Below are positions 5,208-25,708 of a DNA stretch of 27,857 bases, in pieces. The notes under the pieces are model-generated. The model did not search any database, had not been told where the DNA came from, and was given only the letters and a program-made list of their open reading frames with translations. Each line of letters begins with the position of its first letter. Position 1 is the first letter of the stretch. The position numbers and the translations under genes were made by a program. Source of the stretch: a virus; IMG/VR virus record IMGVR_UViG_3300035698_021447, positions 1 through 27,857 of that record. The stretch is one strand, 5' to 3'.

Positions 5208-5661
5208 TTTCTATTGTAAGCACAATTTTTTCAATCACTTCGTCCACTGTCTCTCCGTTAGCATTCATGAACGCTATGGGCAATTTGTGAGCGGAAAAGA
5301 TATCACACCATTTTTCGTTGATTTCCAAAAGACCAGAACGAGTGTATTGAGTTTTGTGTTTCTTCTTGTGTATGTTTTTGCTGTACTCTTCCCAAGGCTT
5401 GTTCATCATTAAAACGATTGCCACATTATCGAATGACATTTCATTGATGCCTTTGGATTTTTCGGCAATTGGCCAATGAATAATTGAGTCCAGAAGAATG
5501 CGGGTCGCTTCTGTTACTTCTCGATGGATGGGAATCTTTTTTGAGCTACGGACTCTTTCTCTAAGCTTGTCGATCAGAAAGCTTTTCCCAGAACCCGCCA
5601 CACCAGCTACTATAACACTTTTTTTAGTTTGGTAAGTATGGTTGTTGTAAGAAAATATCAT
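5194..5661 (-). CDS. Small P-loop NTPase or kinase
   Basis: The 155-residue protein has a Walker A loop, GVAGSGKS (20-27), directly after the first strand, followed by basic helices. Its size and layout suit a P-loop kinase or phosphoryl-transfer enzyme; I cannot identify the substrate. The ATG at 5661 overlaps the TGA of the upstream sulfotransferase gene (ATGA), so this start is preferred to a TTG at 5682. Pairing with a sulfotransferase invites the idea of supplying PAPS as an APS kinase would, but I see no diagnostic APS-kinase motif beyond the P-loop. Confidence 0.68.
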   Translation of the reverse strand: MIFSYNNHTYQTKKSVIVAGVAGSGKSFLIDKLRERVRSSKKIPIHREVTEATRILLDSIIHWPIAEKSKGINEMSFDNVAIVLMMNKPWEEYSKNIHKKKHKTQYTRSGLLEINEKWCDIFSAHKLPIAFMNANGETVDEVIEKIVLTIEIKHL

Positions 5662-8837: not shown

Positions 8838-9575
8838 TCAGTCGTATACTTGGAAATTGTATTTGTCGGAGATGTAGCGATTGCCGCCAAAATCCAACCG
8901 GAACCATATGTTGTAGATTCCACAATCCATGTCCTCTGTGTCGATTTGGTAAAAACCAAACCTCTTCTCGCGGTAATCGATGGATGCATTTTCCACTACC
9001 ATCCTAAGATCCTCTTCTGCTGGAACACAATCTCCACAATGTTGTTCGATGGAGACTTGGATGTCGGCAACAATTGCAAGGTTCTCGTAGTAGGCTCTGA
9101 GATCTCCTGCTGTAGGAACGTTAGGGATGATCTCGATTCTGATGTATTGTTTGGAACCCTTTCTGAATTTATTGGGTTGAAAGTGGAAGTTGAAGTCGTA
9201 GACTATTGGCATAGGGGTGGTGTACCATAATGCCGGATAGACTTGGAATGTGTGTTCCAGATTGCCAGAAGGCTGGCCTGCCGAGACGCTAACGGTCCAA
9301 ATGTCTATGTAGCTTCCGATGACGTACTTACCATCTTCAAGACTGATCGGGAGGAGATAATTCCCAGTATCTTCAAGAGTGACAGCAGCACCATAAAACC
9401 TCTCGACAAACCGCCTGCCTTCTGGGTTTTCCGCAGTAACCTCTTCAGGGTCCATGTAGTAGATTTCTACCATCTCTATACTTTCAAAGTCAGCATATTC
9501 ATTCCCATTAAGGGAAAAGATTCTGAGATTGATGTCATCGCCTACTACCGGGTTCTGATAGCGCTCTACGCTCAT
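8838..9575 (-). CDS. Putative virion structural protein
   Basis: The 245-residue, beta-rich protein is free of enzyme motifs. It starts SVERYQNPVVGDD and has repeated aromatic strands such as YDFNFHFQPNKFRKGS. I recall similar proteins in large myoviruses, annotated only as structural. The ATG at 9575 overlaps the TGA of the HNH gene (ATGA) and has AAGGA 5 nt upstream inside the HNH gene. The in-frame TTG at 9608 is less likely. This tight junction shows that the HNH gene is fitted exactly against the start of this gene and supplies its ribosome binding site. Confidence 0.6.
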   Translation of the reverse strand: MSVERYQNPVVGDDINLRIFSLNGNEYADFESIEMVEIYYMDPEEVTAENPEGRRFVERFYGAAVTLEDTGNYLLPISLEDGKYVIGSYIDIWTVSVSAGQPSGNLEHTFQVYPALWYTTPMPIVYDFNFHFQPNKFRKGSKQYIRIEIIPNVPTAGDLRAYYENLAIVADIQVSIEQHCGDCVPAEEDLRMVVENASIDYREKRFGFYQIDTEDMDCGIYNIWFRLDFGGNRYISDKYNFQVYD

Positions 9576-10150
9576 GGTGTTTCCTTGTATTCTATAAGTT
9601 TTCGACAAACTTCTGTGAATAACATATCATCATCAAGGTCTTTTTCGACTTTACAGTATATGTCTGTCACAACCTTTTCTGGCACTTGAAAACCTTCCGA
9701 AAGTCTCGGAAAGAAATGGAAGTTCCATTTATGTGTAACAATCATTAGATTGTCTGGTCTATCATCTTCTAAAGAGACTGCTGATCCACTTTTGTGATGA
9801 ACCACATATCCACTTGGTATTTTTCCGTAATGGTGTTGGTAAACAATTCTTGCATGAGTTGTTCGGGAGCCACTTTTTGCACATACATACCATCGCTTTT
9901 GGGGCTCACTGTATCGCACAACTTTATTTCCGGGGAGATAAGGGCTAATATTGACATTGTCTACTCCCCACTTTTTGACTCTCTTTGTTTTTTCTTCTAG
10001 GCTTTGTTGTTTGCCTCTTCTGTGATGCCCACAAATATAACGTAGTGGTTGTCCTTTTTTGATTTCTTTAGTGTGCCAGTTTCTTGTTGCAATGGGTGCT
10101 GGTTGTCCACATCCGCATTCACAAAGTTTTTGGGGTTTGATATTGTTCAT
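9572..10150 (-). CDS. HNH homing endonuclease with N-terminal Cys/His zinc motif
   Basis: The 192-residue nuclease begins with a CECGCG (10-15) and YICGHHRRG (38-46) zinc-binding unit. The HNH core follows: GYVVHHKSG (114-122), then DDRPDNLMIVTHKWNFHF (129-146), with the central Asn at 134. It is a clear paralogue of the endonuclease at 10355-11020, which shares the zinc unit, the ISPYL/FSPYL stretch, the HHK core and the RPxNLM segment. ATG 10150 is preferred over TTG 10177, though neither has a good SD. TATATAAT lies about 10 nt upstream on the coding strand and may be a promoter. The stop overlaps the next gene as ATGA. Confidence 0.88.
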   Translation of the reverse strand: MNNIKPQKLCECGCGQPAPIATRNWHTKEIKKGQPLRYICGHHRRGKQQSLEEKTKRVKKWGVDNVNISPYLPGNKVVRYSEPQKRWYVCAKSGSRTTHARIVYQHHYGKIPSGYVVHHKSGSAVSLEDDRPDNLMIVTHKWNFHFFPRLSEGFQVPEKVVTDIYCKVEKDLDDDMLFTEVCRKLIEYKETP

Positions 10151-10151
10151 G

Positions 10152-10199
10152 CTAATTATATAGTGGTGCGATATCAAATTTCACACTTTTCGTGGCCAT
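10152..10199 (-). CDS. 15-codon ORF, possibly a truncated 5' end of a gene
   Basis: ATG 10199 follows GGGAAGGT and opens a 15-residue frame (MATKSVKFDIAPLYN) ending in TAG, 1 nt before the HNH start at 10150. It overlaps the end of the small gene at 10181-10321 in another frame. It could be a real micro-peptide, chance, or the stump of a gene interrupted when the HNH gene entered. No matching continuation is visible on the other side of the HNH gene. Confidence 0.25.
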   Translation of the reverse strand: MATKSVKFDIAPLYN

Positions 10200-10321
10200 T
10201 TTACCTTCCCTAATTTGGTTATAAGCTTCTTCCGAATAGCTTGTCGAACGATTTGTTCTATTTCATCCATCCGATTAACAAGCTGTCTTTTTCTGTGTCG
10301 AACTAGCCAGAAATTTTTCAC
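10181..10321 (-). CDS. Small basic protein of unknown function
   Basis: The 46-residue, very basic protein begins MKNFWLVRHRKRQLV, is likely helical, and ends in TGA. It starts at GTG 10321 with GAGG 6 nt upstream; this SD overlaps the TGA of the displaced 3' end at 10330-10365. In the ancestral order it probably followed the gene at 11104-11265 directly, before the HNH gene came between them. It now sits between two paralogous HNH genes. Confidence 0.5.
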   Translation of the reverse strand: MKNFWLVRHRKRQLVNRMDEIEQIVRQAIRKKLITKLGKVKWPRKV

Positions 10322-10329
10322 GTAATACC

Positions 10330-10365
10330 TCAATGCTTCTTAGCTTTTCTAGCCTTATCTATGCT
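10330..10365 (-). pseudogene. Displaced duplicate of the 3' end of the gene at 11104-11265
   Basis: Leftward, these 36 nt read SIDKARKAKKH then TGA. The intact gene at 11104-11265 ends AIDKARKAKKH then TAA. Ten consecutive residues are identical, while seven of the ten codons differ, each at the third position and each synonymously. The copy begins inside the last codons of the HNH gene and ends at the SD of the next small gene. It is best read as the original 3' end, left behind when the HNH cassette inserted with its own version of that end. Confidence 0.75.
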
Positions 10366-11020
10366 CTGTTAGCAGAGAACATAGCTGAGAGAATTTTTCC
10401 TCGTCATCTGAAATATCACTAGGAATCGCCAAGTAACAATCAGTAACAATCTTTTCGCTTACTCCGAATCCCTTTGCTAAAACAGGAAAAAATCTTAAGT
10501 TCCATTCATCAGGTAACAACATCAAGTTCTCAGGTCGATCATCTTTTATCTTGCTGTGCTTGCCGTCTTTGTGATGAGCCACATATCCCTTCGGTATTTC
10601 ACCAAAGCGGTTTTTGTATACTGCGTTGGCGTGCATCACCATTTTCCATTTTCCATTTTCTTTTACACAAGCTGTCCATCTTTTCATTTTTTTATCATAT
10701 GAGATAAATGTCTCTTCTAAGTAAGGGCTGAAGACAGGCTCTCTGCCCCACCTTTTTCTAGTTCTTTCGATTCGGTATTCAAGACTTAGTTTTGACCCTT
10801 TGAGATGATGTCCTTTTATGTAGTCGTTTACATGTCCGTTAGGAAGGGGAGAAATTTCTGTTCCGCACCCACACTGACAATAGTGGATCTCGTTTGGATC
10901 AGGTGGACTCCATCCTTTTTTCCTCATGTGATGTCCACGCAAAAAAAAACTTGTCCTATTGTTTTTCCATATCTTTAACTCGCCTCCGCATCCACATTCA
11001 CAATATTTCTTGTCTTCCAT
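10355..11020 (-). CDS. HNH homing endonuclease with two N-terminal zinc units
   Basis: The 221-residue nuclease begins with two copies of a Cys/His zinc unit: CECGCG...RGHH at 7-31 and CQCGCG...KGHH at 48-72. The HNH core follows (GYVAHHKDG at 145-153, then DDRPENLMLLPDEWNLRFF at 160-178). It is a paralogue of the endonuclease at 9572-10150, which has one zinc unit. ATG 11020 is preferred because AAGGAG lies 6 nt upstream; this SD is inside a perfect 16-bp inverted repeat. Insertion is at the 3' end of a small tail-assembly-type gene, a duplicate of whose end lies at the downstream border. Confidence 0.9.
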   Translation of the reverse strand: MEDKKYCECGCGGELKIWKNNRTSFFLRGHHMRKKGWSPPDPNEIHYCQCGCGTEISPLPNGHVNDYIKGHHLKGSKLSLEYRIERTRKRWGREPVFSPYLEETFISYDKKMKRWTACVKENGKWKMVMHANAVYKNRFGEIPKGYVAHHKDGKHSKIKDDRPENLMLLPDEWNLRFFPVLAKGFGVSEKIVTDCYLAIPSDISDDEEKFSQLCSLLTEHR

Positions 11021-11024
11021 TTTG

Positions 11025-11093
11025 ATCTCCTTAAAAATCAACTATTTCTTATCTACTCTAATAGAGAAAGAAAATTATGATTTTTAAGGAGAT
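11025..11093 (-). promoter_or_regulatory. 16-bp perfect inverted repeat sequestering the SD of an HNH gene
   Basis: ATCTCCTTAAAAATCA (11025-11040) is the exact complement of 11078-11093. The 37-nt loop can add inner pairs (11045-11050 with 11068-11073; 11056-11059 with 11063-11066). In leftward RNA, the arm nearer the gene contains the AAGGAG of the HNH start at 11020, so read-through transcripts should hide it. No clear late-promoter box lies in the loop; the nearest is GATAAGAAATA. It is AT-rich with no U-tract, so a terminator is unlikely. Confidence 0.75.
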
Positions 11094-11103
11094 AATCAGT
11101 TAT

Positions 11104-11265
11104 TTAGTGCTTTTTTGCCTTCCTAGCCTTGTCAATTGCATCAGATTCCCTCTTTTTTTGTTCGATGAAACGCTGAATTAACCACTTTCTCTCATGCACA
11201 GGCAGAATCATGCAATCTTGCTTGCTCATTTTCATATGATATTGGAAGAAGAAGAGTTCCTCCAT
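11104..11265 (-). CDS. Small helical protein next to the gp26-like hub gene, possible tail-assembly chaperone
   Basis: The 53-residue protein begins MEELFFFQYHMKMS, has LPVHERKWLIQRF in the middle and a basic Lys-Ala tail. I recall this pattern in small proteins encoded directly after baseplate-hub or tail-chaperone genes of myoviruses. The ATG has only a weak GGA. The frame is open upstream (KSASVELWNTL...) through the end of the gp26-like gene, with a slippery T_TTT_TTC there, so a fusion by -1 frameshifting is possible. Its last codons appear recoded relative to the duplicate at 10330-10365. Confidence 0.65.
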   Translation of the reverse strand: MEELFFFQYHMKMSKQDCMILPVHERKWLIQRFIEQKKRESDAIDKARKAKKH

Positions 11266-11282
11266 CAACGTATTCCATAGTT

Positions 11283-12416
11283 CTACGCTGGCGCTCTTTC
11301 CTGCTTCTTCCTTGGGAAGAAAAAATTGGTTTCCAGAGGCAGATCTATTTCAAACTCCTCTGTACAAGCTGGGCAAACCATAGGAACTTCAGTATTCACT
11401 CCAAATGGAGGTTCGTTAATGACATTTCTTAGGTGTGAGACATCATTGATTGGCAATCTCTTCAGCAAATGCGCCAATTCCTTCTTCATCGTTACGCCTT
11501 CGACCTCTTCGAGAAGCAAAGCGGTTCGGTATAAAAGAGTGTCATCGTCGCTTTGGTCGCCCCATTGCTGAATGCGTCGTTCGCGATAACTAGTGATTTC
11601 CTGCTCATCTCCACCTGTTGCCAATCGATAGCTGTAATTAAACTCGCTGGTAGGCAAAGTTCCATAAAGCTCTTCATCATCGAAGTCATCAGGACAAGCT
11701 TCTACGTCTAAGTCATTGAGGTCAATGATGGTAGAGAACTTCATTGAACAGTTGGGGCACTTGATCTCTACATCATATTCTGGTGTATAGGAAATACCAC
11801 GCAGATAGATCAAGAGGTGTGTTCTATCAATCGAGAGTAGTTCTTCTGTCCTGATCGATTCTTGGATGCATCGTTGGAAGATCATGTCGATGGCCTTGCC
11901 CTTTTTGACCCATCTTGGCGTGGCAAGGATCTGCTCTTCTTCGCCAGTCATTGGGCGAATGTGAATCTTTTCAGGAATGTCTGCGTAAAACTTGCTTTTG
12001 GATGGGAAAGAAAATTCTTCCCAATGATGTTGGTCAGCCAACTTTTGCAGCAATCCTTCTAGTTGATCACTGCCTTGTACTCTGAGATCGGCTTTCTTAC
12101 CTTTTCGTTTCTTGCGTGGTCTTTCAGGTGGAGCCTCGAATGTTTCAAAGCCGTCCTCATCTACAGATTCGGCGGCAGGCTGTTCGGAAGTTGCTTGTTT
12201 TCCCTGCTGAAGAGCTTGCCTGAATGCAGGAGGTATAGTGCCGCTGATTTCAAATGGTGCTTCTCCGGGAGTTCTGGTTTGCAGGGGCTCTGCTGCTTCG
12301 CCACCTGTTTCTTTAGCTACTGCATCACGTACTTCTTGAATCTTAGCTAGGGGGTCGCTGCCTACATCGGCGGCGGTTACCTTTTTCTTACTGGGTCGAT
12401 AGACATCATCTGCCAT
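11283..12416 (-). CDS. Baseplate hub protein, T4 gp26-like
   Basis: The 377-residue protein has a long polar, probably disordered N-terminus (about 1-112, with a basic RPRKKRKGKK at 99-108). The C-terminal domain is typical of gp26-type hub proteins: FPSKSKFY (137-144), PMTGEEEQIL (155-164), and two CxxC sites (CPNC 220-223; CPAC 348-351). T4 gp26 is about 208 residues, so the N-terminal extension is unusual. The start has AAGGAG 6 nt upstream. A slippery heptamer at 11319-11325, at Phe365-Phe366, could move ribosomes into the frame of the next gene. It diverges from the gene at 12474. Confidence 0.75.
   Translation of the reverse strand: MADDVYRPSKKKVTAADVGSDPLAKIQEVRDAVAKETGGEAAEPLQTRTPGEAPFEISGTIPPAFRQALQQGKQATSEQPAAESVDEDGFETFEAPPERPRKKRKGKKADLRVQGSDQLEGLLQKLADQHHWEEFSFPSKSKFYADIPEKIHIRPMTGEEEQILATPRWVKKGKAIDMIFQRCIQESIRTEELLSIDRTHLLIYLRGISYTPEYDVEIKCPNCSMKFSTIIDLNDLDVEACPDDFDDEELYGTLPTSEFNYSYRLATGGDEQEITSYRERRIQQWGDQSDDDTLLYRTALLLEEVEGVTMKKELAHLLKRLPINDVSHLRNVINEPPFGVNTEVPMVCPACTEEFEIDLPLETNFFFPRKKQERAPA
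11319..11325 (-). other. Candidate -1 frameshift site T_TTT_TTC
   Basis: In the frame of the gp26-like gene, the bases read T TTT TTC, which fits the X XXY YYZ rule. After a -1 slip, the new frame stays open through the end of the gene and enters the small gene at 11104-11265 without a stop. No downstream pseudoknot was established by eye. Confidence 0.45.
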
Positions 12417-24613: not shown

Positions 24614-25708
24614 TCAAGCAAAACTCCGCGTAACATTCTCAAAAATGTTTAGGCGTGCTTGCTTCGTCTTGCGAAACACACTTCCTTCAATTGAAATTAG
24701 ATTCAATTTTCTTTCTCTGTATATACGTTCTTTGGCTACTCGTTTTTTGCCGTATCTTTCGCAACGTTTGTTGTTTGTTCGTTCCTCAAATCCCCATATC
24801 TCTATGAAAGTGTCGCCGATCTTGAAGTCACACCGAATCTTTCTGTCTGGGACAATCTCACAATCAACTTCATGATCAATTCCTTGTTCGTAAAGGAAGT
24901 CGTCAAACTCTACTTCATAATTGGATTTCAGAGCATGTCCATCCTTGGCAATGAGGTAAGACTCTGGGCTGACTTTGAGACCCATTCGCTCTGCCACATC
25001 CACAACGCCACCAAAATCCGCTATAGCGATACCAACACTGCCTCCCAACTCTTTTCTTAAGACAGATACAGGTGGCATCGTGTTCTTTTTACAGTAAGGT
25101 CTGATTGCGTCATCTACATTTTCCCAGATCTTCCAAAAACCTTGGGCTCGTTGAAGGGGTTGATATCCCAATTCTTTCAGTAATTCGCCATACGTGTCTC
25201 CGAGTTTGTCTATTGCTCCCAAGAGACTTGAATCAAATTTCTTTAATTCGGTTGTGGCAGGTACATGACCGAGTTGCTTGACATGTTCTTGGATGCGATC
25301 CAATACTTTGCTCTTTGACCATTTTTCTTTGACTTCATATCCAAGTTTAGATTTGTAGTATCTCCAATCTCGGGTACGGTAGATGGCTCTCATTAACTCT
25401 GCACGATTGCTTTGGATGTATTTGATGGTTGGGAATTCTCCAAGAGTTTCAAGTATAGATTGAATCTCTTGGAGAATGGTTTCTTCTGTCCAATAACCAC
25501 GAGGTTTTCTATTGTGTTCATATCCCAACTCCAAAGCAAGATCGTGATACGTAAGACCCAAGTGAGTGATAGCATTAGTGAGTCGTGATTCCTTTAACTC
25601 ATCTAATCTTTTTCTTGTGGGAAATGAATCGTCTTGTTGTGTAATTTCTGCAAGGCGATCAAGCACATCTTGTTTTGACCACTTTGTGTATGTTTTATTG
25701 AATTTCAT
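24614..25708 (-). CDS. EDxHD/Vsr-like homing endonuclease with four DNA-binding repeats
   Basis: Residues 8-249 of this 364-residue protein hold four related units of about 60 residues: W-S-K at the start, a helix, F/V-P-T in the middle, A-I-x-x-L-G, then an E-L-G-Y end. Such arrays occur in phage homing endonucleases and probably read the target. The C-terminal domain carries a Vsr/PD-(D/E)xK-type core: EVEFDDFL (265-272), His279, CDF (Asp294) and FIEIWGF (Glu303, with Trp305 in the usual Lys position), then a Lys/Arg helix and LNLISIEG. This resembles the EDxHD group typified by I-Bth0305I. AAGGAG lies near the ATG, and the start codon is in a hairpin arm. Confidence 0.8.
   Translation of the reverse strand: MKFNKTYTKWSKQDVLDRLAEITQQDDSFPTRKRLDELKESRLTNAITHLGLTYHDLALELGYEHNRKPRGYWTEETILQEIQSILETLGEFPTIKYIQSNRAELMRAIYRTRDWRYYKSKLGYEVKEKWSKSKVLDRIQEHVKQLGHVPATTELKKFDSSLLGAIDKLGDTYGELLKELGYQPLQRAQGFWKIWENVDDAIRPYCKKNTMPPVSVLRKELGGSVGIAIADFGGVVDVAERMGLKVSPESYLIAKDGHALKSNYEVEFDDFLYEQGIDHEVDCEIVPDRKIRCDFKIGDTFIEIWGFEERTNNKRCERYGKKRVAKERIYRERKLNLISIEGSVFRKTKQARLNIFENVTRSFA

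Follow-up and report, generated by a model that had tools for sequence, protein, structure and literature searches.

The window, by which we mean the whole stretch of DNA analysed, is a 27,857-base viral contig carrying genes for the tail sheath (PF04984), a sheath stabiliser (PF16724) and the baseplate (PF12322). The best match of its baseplate hub gene among phage records is an unannotated 595-kb uncultured phage, and several related contigs are longer than 400 kb; thus, the window probably derives from a huge T4-like myovirus. All the genes treated at the locus lie on the minus strand (Table 1). The hub gene, situated upstream of the insertion considered here, is kept in all relatives, while the small gene between it and the conserved downstream tail gene occurs in nearly all of them, with 69–94% identity in the close ones; no relative of the small gene was found in the bacterial and archaeal genome collection. 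The product of HNH1 matches the HNH_3 domain (PF13392) with 26.7 bits against a curated cut-off of 24.8, and two CxCGC...GHH motifs precede that domain. HNH1 has its own ATG and Shine–Dalgarno (SD) sequence and forms a complete reading frame outside that of the host gene. A tblastn search of the annotated phage collection yielded no relative of HNH1, and a PDB profile search yielded weak matches only, one of them limited to a short segment of the HNH homing endonuclease 1u3e (E 0.48).

Table 1. Features of the locus, with positions in the window.
Feature	Position	Strand	Remarks
T4_baseplate-domain gene (baseplate hub, phrog_150)	11283..12416	-	PF12322 E 1.6e-15; phrog_150 E 8e-19
Small host gene, 53 aa (MEELFFFQYHM...IDKARKAKKH)	11104..11265	-	ATG 11265, TAA 11104
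Working gene end, codons 44-53 and TAA	11104..11136	-	IDKARKAKKH-stop; taken as cassette-borne
HNH1 leader hairpin	11025..11093	-	SD AAGGAG paired with upstream CTCCTT; -28.3 kcal/mol, z -5.5
HNH1, 221-aa HNH endonuclease (HNH_3)	10355..11020	-	PF13392 E 4e-6, above cut-off
Leftover (native) gene end, IDKARKAKKH-TGA	10330..10362	-	Own frame part of no gene
KNFW gene (M-KNFW..., 46 aa)	10181..10321	-	Adjoins small gene in empty relatives having KNFW
HNH2, HNH1 paralogue	9572..10150	-	PF13392 E 8e-10; ~40% identical to HNH1
Downstream tail gene (MSVERYQNP..., 245 aa)	8838..9575	-	Conserved; right anchor of the locus

HNH2 separates the KNFW gene from the tail gene, its TGA overlapping the ATG of the latter. 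A truncated HNH gene with the same kind of stop/start overlap is found directly before the tail gene in a distant relative (L103, 3690-4004). Within 9572-10200 of the window, ATGGCCACGAAA, just before HNH2, agrees with the start of the tail gene in relatives (MATKERYQ), and HNH2 may mirror the layout at HNH1, with the gene start being the part displaced; these bases are also explained by a conserved end of the KNFW gene (WPRK in L013). When the duplicated-end layout described below was looked for at HNH2 and at the other HNH loci (L140-L151), none was found. In another relative (L122, 3793-4014), the gene preceding that for the tail protein opens like the small gene (MEEKFALQYHLGW) and then resembles the KNFW gene (KNHWLQKK), which suggests that the small gene and the KNFW gene are old paralogues. 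Elsewhere in the window, positions 24614-25708 show a sub-threshold HNH_repeat (PF18780) match and a weak C-terminal Holliday junction resolvase match, marking a probable further endonuclease gene.

Hairpins equivalent to that of the HNH1 leader are present in L020 (z -6.8) and L103 (z -4.4), with different flanking pairs in each, and the HNH1 leader of L018 shows no significant fold (z -0.8). Such SD-sequestering hairpins have been reviewed for I-TevI, segB and Aeh1 mobE (PMC2988022), and a sequestered ribosome-binding site is common, though not universal, among free-standing phage homing genes. A loop motif common to the window and L103 (TAGATAAGAAAT) was considered as a late promoter and rejected, as it is not enriched in the window; no second promoter motif could be established.

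At this locus, the end of the small gene is present twice. As the sequence-only reading had pointed out, IDKARKAKKH followed by a stop is encoded in the same direction on either side of HNH1, once as the working end (ATT GAC AAG GCT AGG AAG GCA AAA AAG CAC TAA, 11136-11104) and again as what we term the leftover (ATA GAT AAG GCT AGA AAA GCT AAG AAG CAT TGA; codons 10362-10333, TGA 10332-10330). Our recount agrees with that reading in finding all ten residues identical and seven of the ten codons different, each synonymously and at the third position, with 25 of 33 bases shared. The second copy is thus present, and only the span originally given for it (10330-10365) has to be trimmed by one extra codon (AGC), the true start being 10362. 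The leftover lies in a different frame from HNH1 and overlaps its end: the HNH1 frame closes with GAG CAT AGA TAA, of which the last two codons and the stop are largely built from the leftover, the TAA (10357-10355) consisting of leftover bases. On the other side, the likely SD (TTGAGG) of the KNFW gene, which starts with GTG at 10321, overlaps the leftover stop, again as first described. As an RNA structure, the leftover shows no fold beyond chance. Since a non-coding leftover would not diverge at silent sites only, the differences between the two ends most likely arose before the insertion, when both versions were coding.

When the viral collection was scanned with the hub protein alone, no match came up, and alignment queries were needed; alignment-based scans of viral contigs recovered 80 loci with the hub gene as query, 52 with the tail gene and 31 with the small gene. 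Among these are 11 close lineages that lack HNH1 (L006, L008/9, L010 with the near-identical L012, L011, L013, L014, L017, L021, L023, L025 and L087), and all 11 have a single gene end. In six of them (L006, L013, L014, L017, L021 and L087), that end is followed by the KNFW gene or its equivalent, at distances from an overlap to about 17 bases; in L087, the small-gene stop overlaps the KNFW start. Because the single end of the empty phages adjoins the KNFW gene, the leftover of the window occupies the position of their native end. For relatives without the HNH gene, the earlier reading had predicted that codon ~43 of the small gene would run straight into an end of the leftover version; the empty lineages do have one end, directly beside the KNFW gene where that gene is present. 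This supports the empty allele as the ancestral one and bears out the proposal that the HNH gene was inserted into the gene end with the protein kept intact and the old end left behind.

HNH1 orthologues (67–71% identical) occupy the same site in L018/L019 and L020, and a further one (62%) is found at this site, without a recognisable leftover, in the distant host L103. Overall, three intact genes and one decayed gene occur at the site among about 15 close lineages, in addition to L103—a sporadic distribution that is patchy on the host tree. The decayed allele belongs to L015, which the host tree places with full support as the sister of L018: the N-terminal part of its HNH gene is lost, and the remainder runs ...VVTDTYLTIQ...LCSRLIDKIKKNKE to a stop, with the next gene directly after. 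Both the window and L015 have the leftover sequence ATAGAT at the end of the HNH frame. The leftover of L015 encodes IDKIKKNKE. In L020, the HNH frame ends ...LASSRKAKK-stop, its last residues being derived from an 18-base exact repeat of the lineage's own small-gene end; this repeat (CACGAAAGGCTAAGAAGT) is not recoded and extends slightly past the stop. In L018 (6069-6160), a full HNH gene is followed by the C-terminal tail of a second one (DEFAELCLVSHR-stop) and then only by ATAGATAA. This succession of a full gene and a second tail suggests that one HNH gene replaced most of another, and we infer that L018 represents the re-invasion of an L015-like allele. The window shares with L015 and L020 the layout of mobile ORFs that carry a C-terminus, with a gene end in frame upstream of HNH1 and the native end downstream.

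We then considered whether the working end came with the HNH gene. Seven of the 11 empty lineages use ATA for the isoleucine of the gene end, and all three leftovers that reach this isoleucine have ATA GAT; in the four alleles that hold an intact or decayed HNH gene, the corresponding codons of the working end are ATT GAC, ATT GAA, ATT GAA and ATG GAG. In this small sample, Fisher p is 0.023, or 0.06 with L015 and L018 merged, and a permutation test treating the ends of HNH-bearing alleles as a codon type of their own gave p 0.02-0.07, which is suggestive only. Over codons 31-43, L018 and L020, the two relatives with an intact HNH gene, are the two top nucleotide matches to the window (0.85 and 0.82, against at most 0.77 for empty alleles), and over codons 1-30 they are not its top matches. 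The window leftover shares ATA GAT with the nearest empty allele, L006, versus ATT GAC in the working end. Thus, the codon pattern is suggestive, in a small sample, of a gene end that may travel with the HNH gene. On the claim that the cassette brought in a foreign gene end, the identities give a divided answer: in L015, the leftover has more in common with L017, the empty sister (0.83 over 18 nt), than with the working end of the same allele (0.56), whereas in the window, the leftover is as similar to L006 (0.78) as to its own working copy (0.78). Against a cassette that carries its own gene end count L013, which lacks HNH1 and yet has ATT GAC, and L103, which has HNH1 but no leftover, and recoding as a requirement is opposed by the 18 identical bases common to both ends of L020. 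At 5300-5365, the HNH-free L013 combines an occupied-type front (ATTGAC) with a leftover-type rear (CATTGA, then GTATCTAC, compare GGTATTAC); such an allele might be what remained after recombination between the two ends had removed a cassette.

As a rule, homing genes of the free-standing kind insert in intergenic positions or interrupt a gene. The reading that we favour, with a probability of roughly two in three and on comparative sequence evidence, is that HNH1 is a free-standing homing cassette that carries a replacement gene end and was inserted in the small tail-module gene. The insertion point would lie between codons 43 and 44, and the mobile unit would comprise the replacement for the last ten codons, a stop codon, the leader hairpin, which would hold back HNH translation, and an HNH frame without a stop of its own. 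After insertion, translation of the host gene would continue into the replacement end and yield an unchanged protein. The native end would stay 3' of the HNH frame, give it a stop and keep the start region of the KNFW gene; the leftover may have been retained for these two roles. The HNH protein would cut empty alleles at or near the site and spread by break repair from a donor phage, the replacement end presumably having arrived together with the HNH gene. As restoring the junction nearly rebuilds the target of the cassette, silent changes there (ATAGAT to ATTGAC) would protect it from recutting. The free-standing endonucleases of T4 mostly cleave at a distance of hundreds of bases from the point where their gene is inserted (PMC2988022), so the HNH1 cut need not fall at the gene end. 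More tentatively, one might imagine a class of cassettes in which the replacement end is cleavage-resistant and the displaced recipient end serves as right recombination arm and stop codon, each invasion resetting the leftover to the version of the recipient. If true, this resetting would explain a fresh-looking leftover beside old HNH genes.

Foremost among the alternatives is an old insertion, passed on by vertical descent with many losses and now scarcely mobile, if at all, whose leftover is kept because it holds the KNFW ribosome-binding region as well as the stop codon of the HNH frame. Within the clade, pairwise HNH identity (0.68-0.71) parallels host identity (0.66-0.69), so that the data are almost as compatible with an early insertion and repeated loss as with recent spread; the likely KNFW SD on the leftover end and the overlapping small-gene stop and KNFW start of L087 also agree with it. 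Nevertheless, the need for an SD and a stop leaves unexplained the conservation of ten residues with only silent changes, and both the patchy distribution of HNH1 on the host tree and the full gene with a second tail in L018, which suggests re-invasion, speak against it; we regard it as unlikely. Somewhat less likely still is a local duplication of the gene end at HNH insertion, target-site-like and through break repair, with the copies drifting apart later. The exact repeat of L020, running slightly past the stop, is what a young duplication would look like. In the window, however, all seven differences are silent and at third positions in spite of a non-coding leftover, an outcome to which simple arithmetic gives a chance of about 0.0005 under drift, and the L015 leftover resembles the empty sister and not its own working end.

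It is most improbable that the HNH gene sits in a self-splicing intron or a translational bypass, with the leftover as a real second exon. The spacing of the two ends is indeed divisible by three (774 nt in the window and 768 nt in L020), but no group I or II intron model matched, Rfam returned only chance microRNA and lncRNA matches, the interval has only about 108 nt that are not HNH, too short for an intron core, and unspliced reading already yields the same protein. That the second copy is part of an unrelated conserved gene, an outcome that the sequence-only reading had named as counting against its proposal, or a chance match is hardly credible: it stands where empty relatives have their single gene end, it forms the only 10/10 match, with 6/10 as the next best, when 560 ORF ends of the window are compared with the following 2 kb, and we found nothing in support of this view.

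Returning to the homing cassette with a replacement end, its closest counterparts lie outside phages. No mention of duplication was found in a review of phage homing genes (PMC2988022), and none of the open-licence papers searched was found to describe a carried gene end in a phage. Among phage systems, T4 mobA and Aeh1 mobE are likewise HNH genes inserted in a phage gene (PMC2988022), and the hairpin of mobE sequesters a ribosome-binding site; there, the host gene is split in two, whereas here it would remain whole, with the cassette giving it a new end. The T4 seg genes and I-TevI are similar in that they are homing genes of sporadic occurrence, either free-standing or in an intron, that the ribosome-binding site of some is sequestered and that flanking sequence is co-converted, but differ in being of the GIY-YIG type. 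If the favoured reading holds, the cassette would give phage homing genes a route into coding sequence without harm, and silent codon changes at a phage gene end could mark an endonuclease instead of drift. The empty, occupied and decayed alleles constitute a defined set for direct tests of cleavage and resistance. The parallel is with fungal mitochondria: in atp6 of Allomyces macrogynus and in atp6, atp9, cox2 and nad3 of Glomus sp., mobile ORFs carry a foreign C-terminus, with the native C-terminus downstream and near that of sister species, and with the carried copy diverged in DNA (PMC3630166). As at our locus, an endonuclease ORF in the 3' part of a gene has its own version of the C-terminus, and the native one is left downstream. 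The enzymes there are LAGLIDADG or GIY-YIG in mitochondria and not HNH in a tailed phage, and here the replacement has ten codons, with its own hairpin leader and an HNH frame that ends in the native leftover. Thus, HNH1 would be a cassette that works like these mobile ORFs by analogy and, its enzyme being HNH, not a member of their group by descent. The gene-end-replacing mobile endonuclease is known from fungal mitochondria; what appears to be new is its counterpart with an HNH enzyme in a tailed phage.
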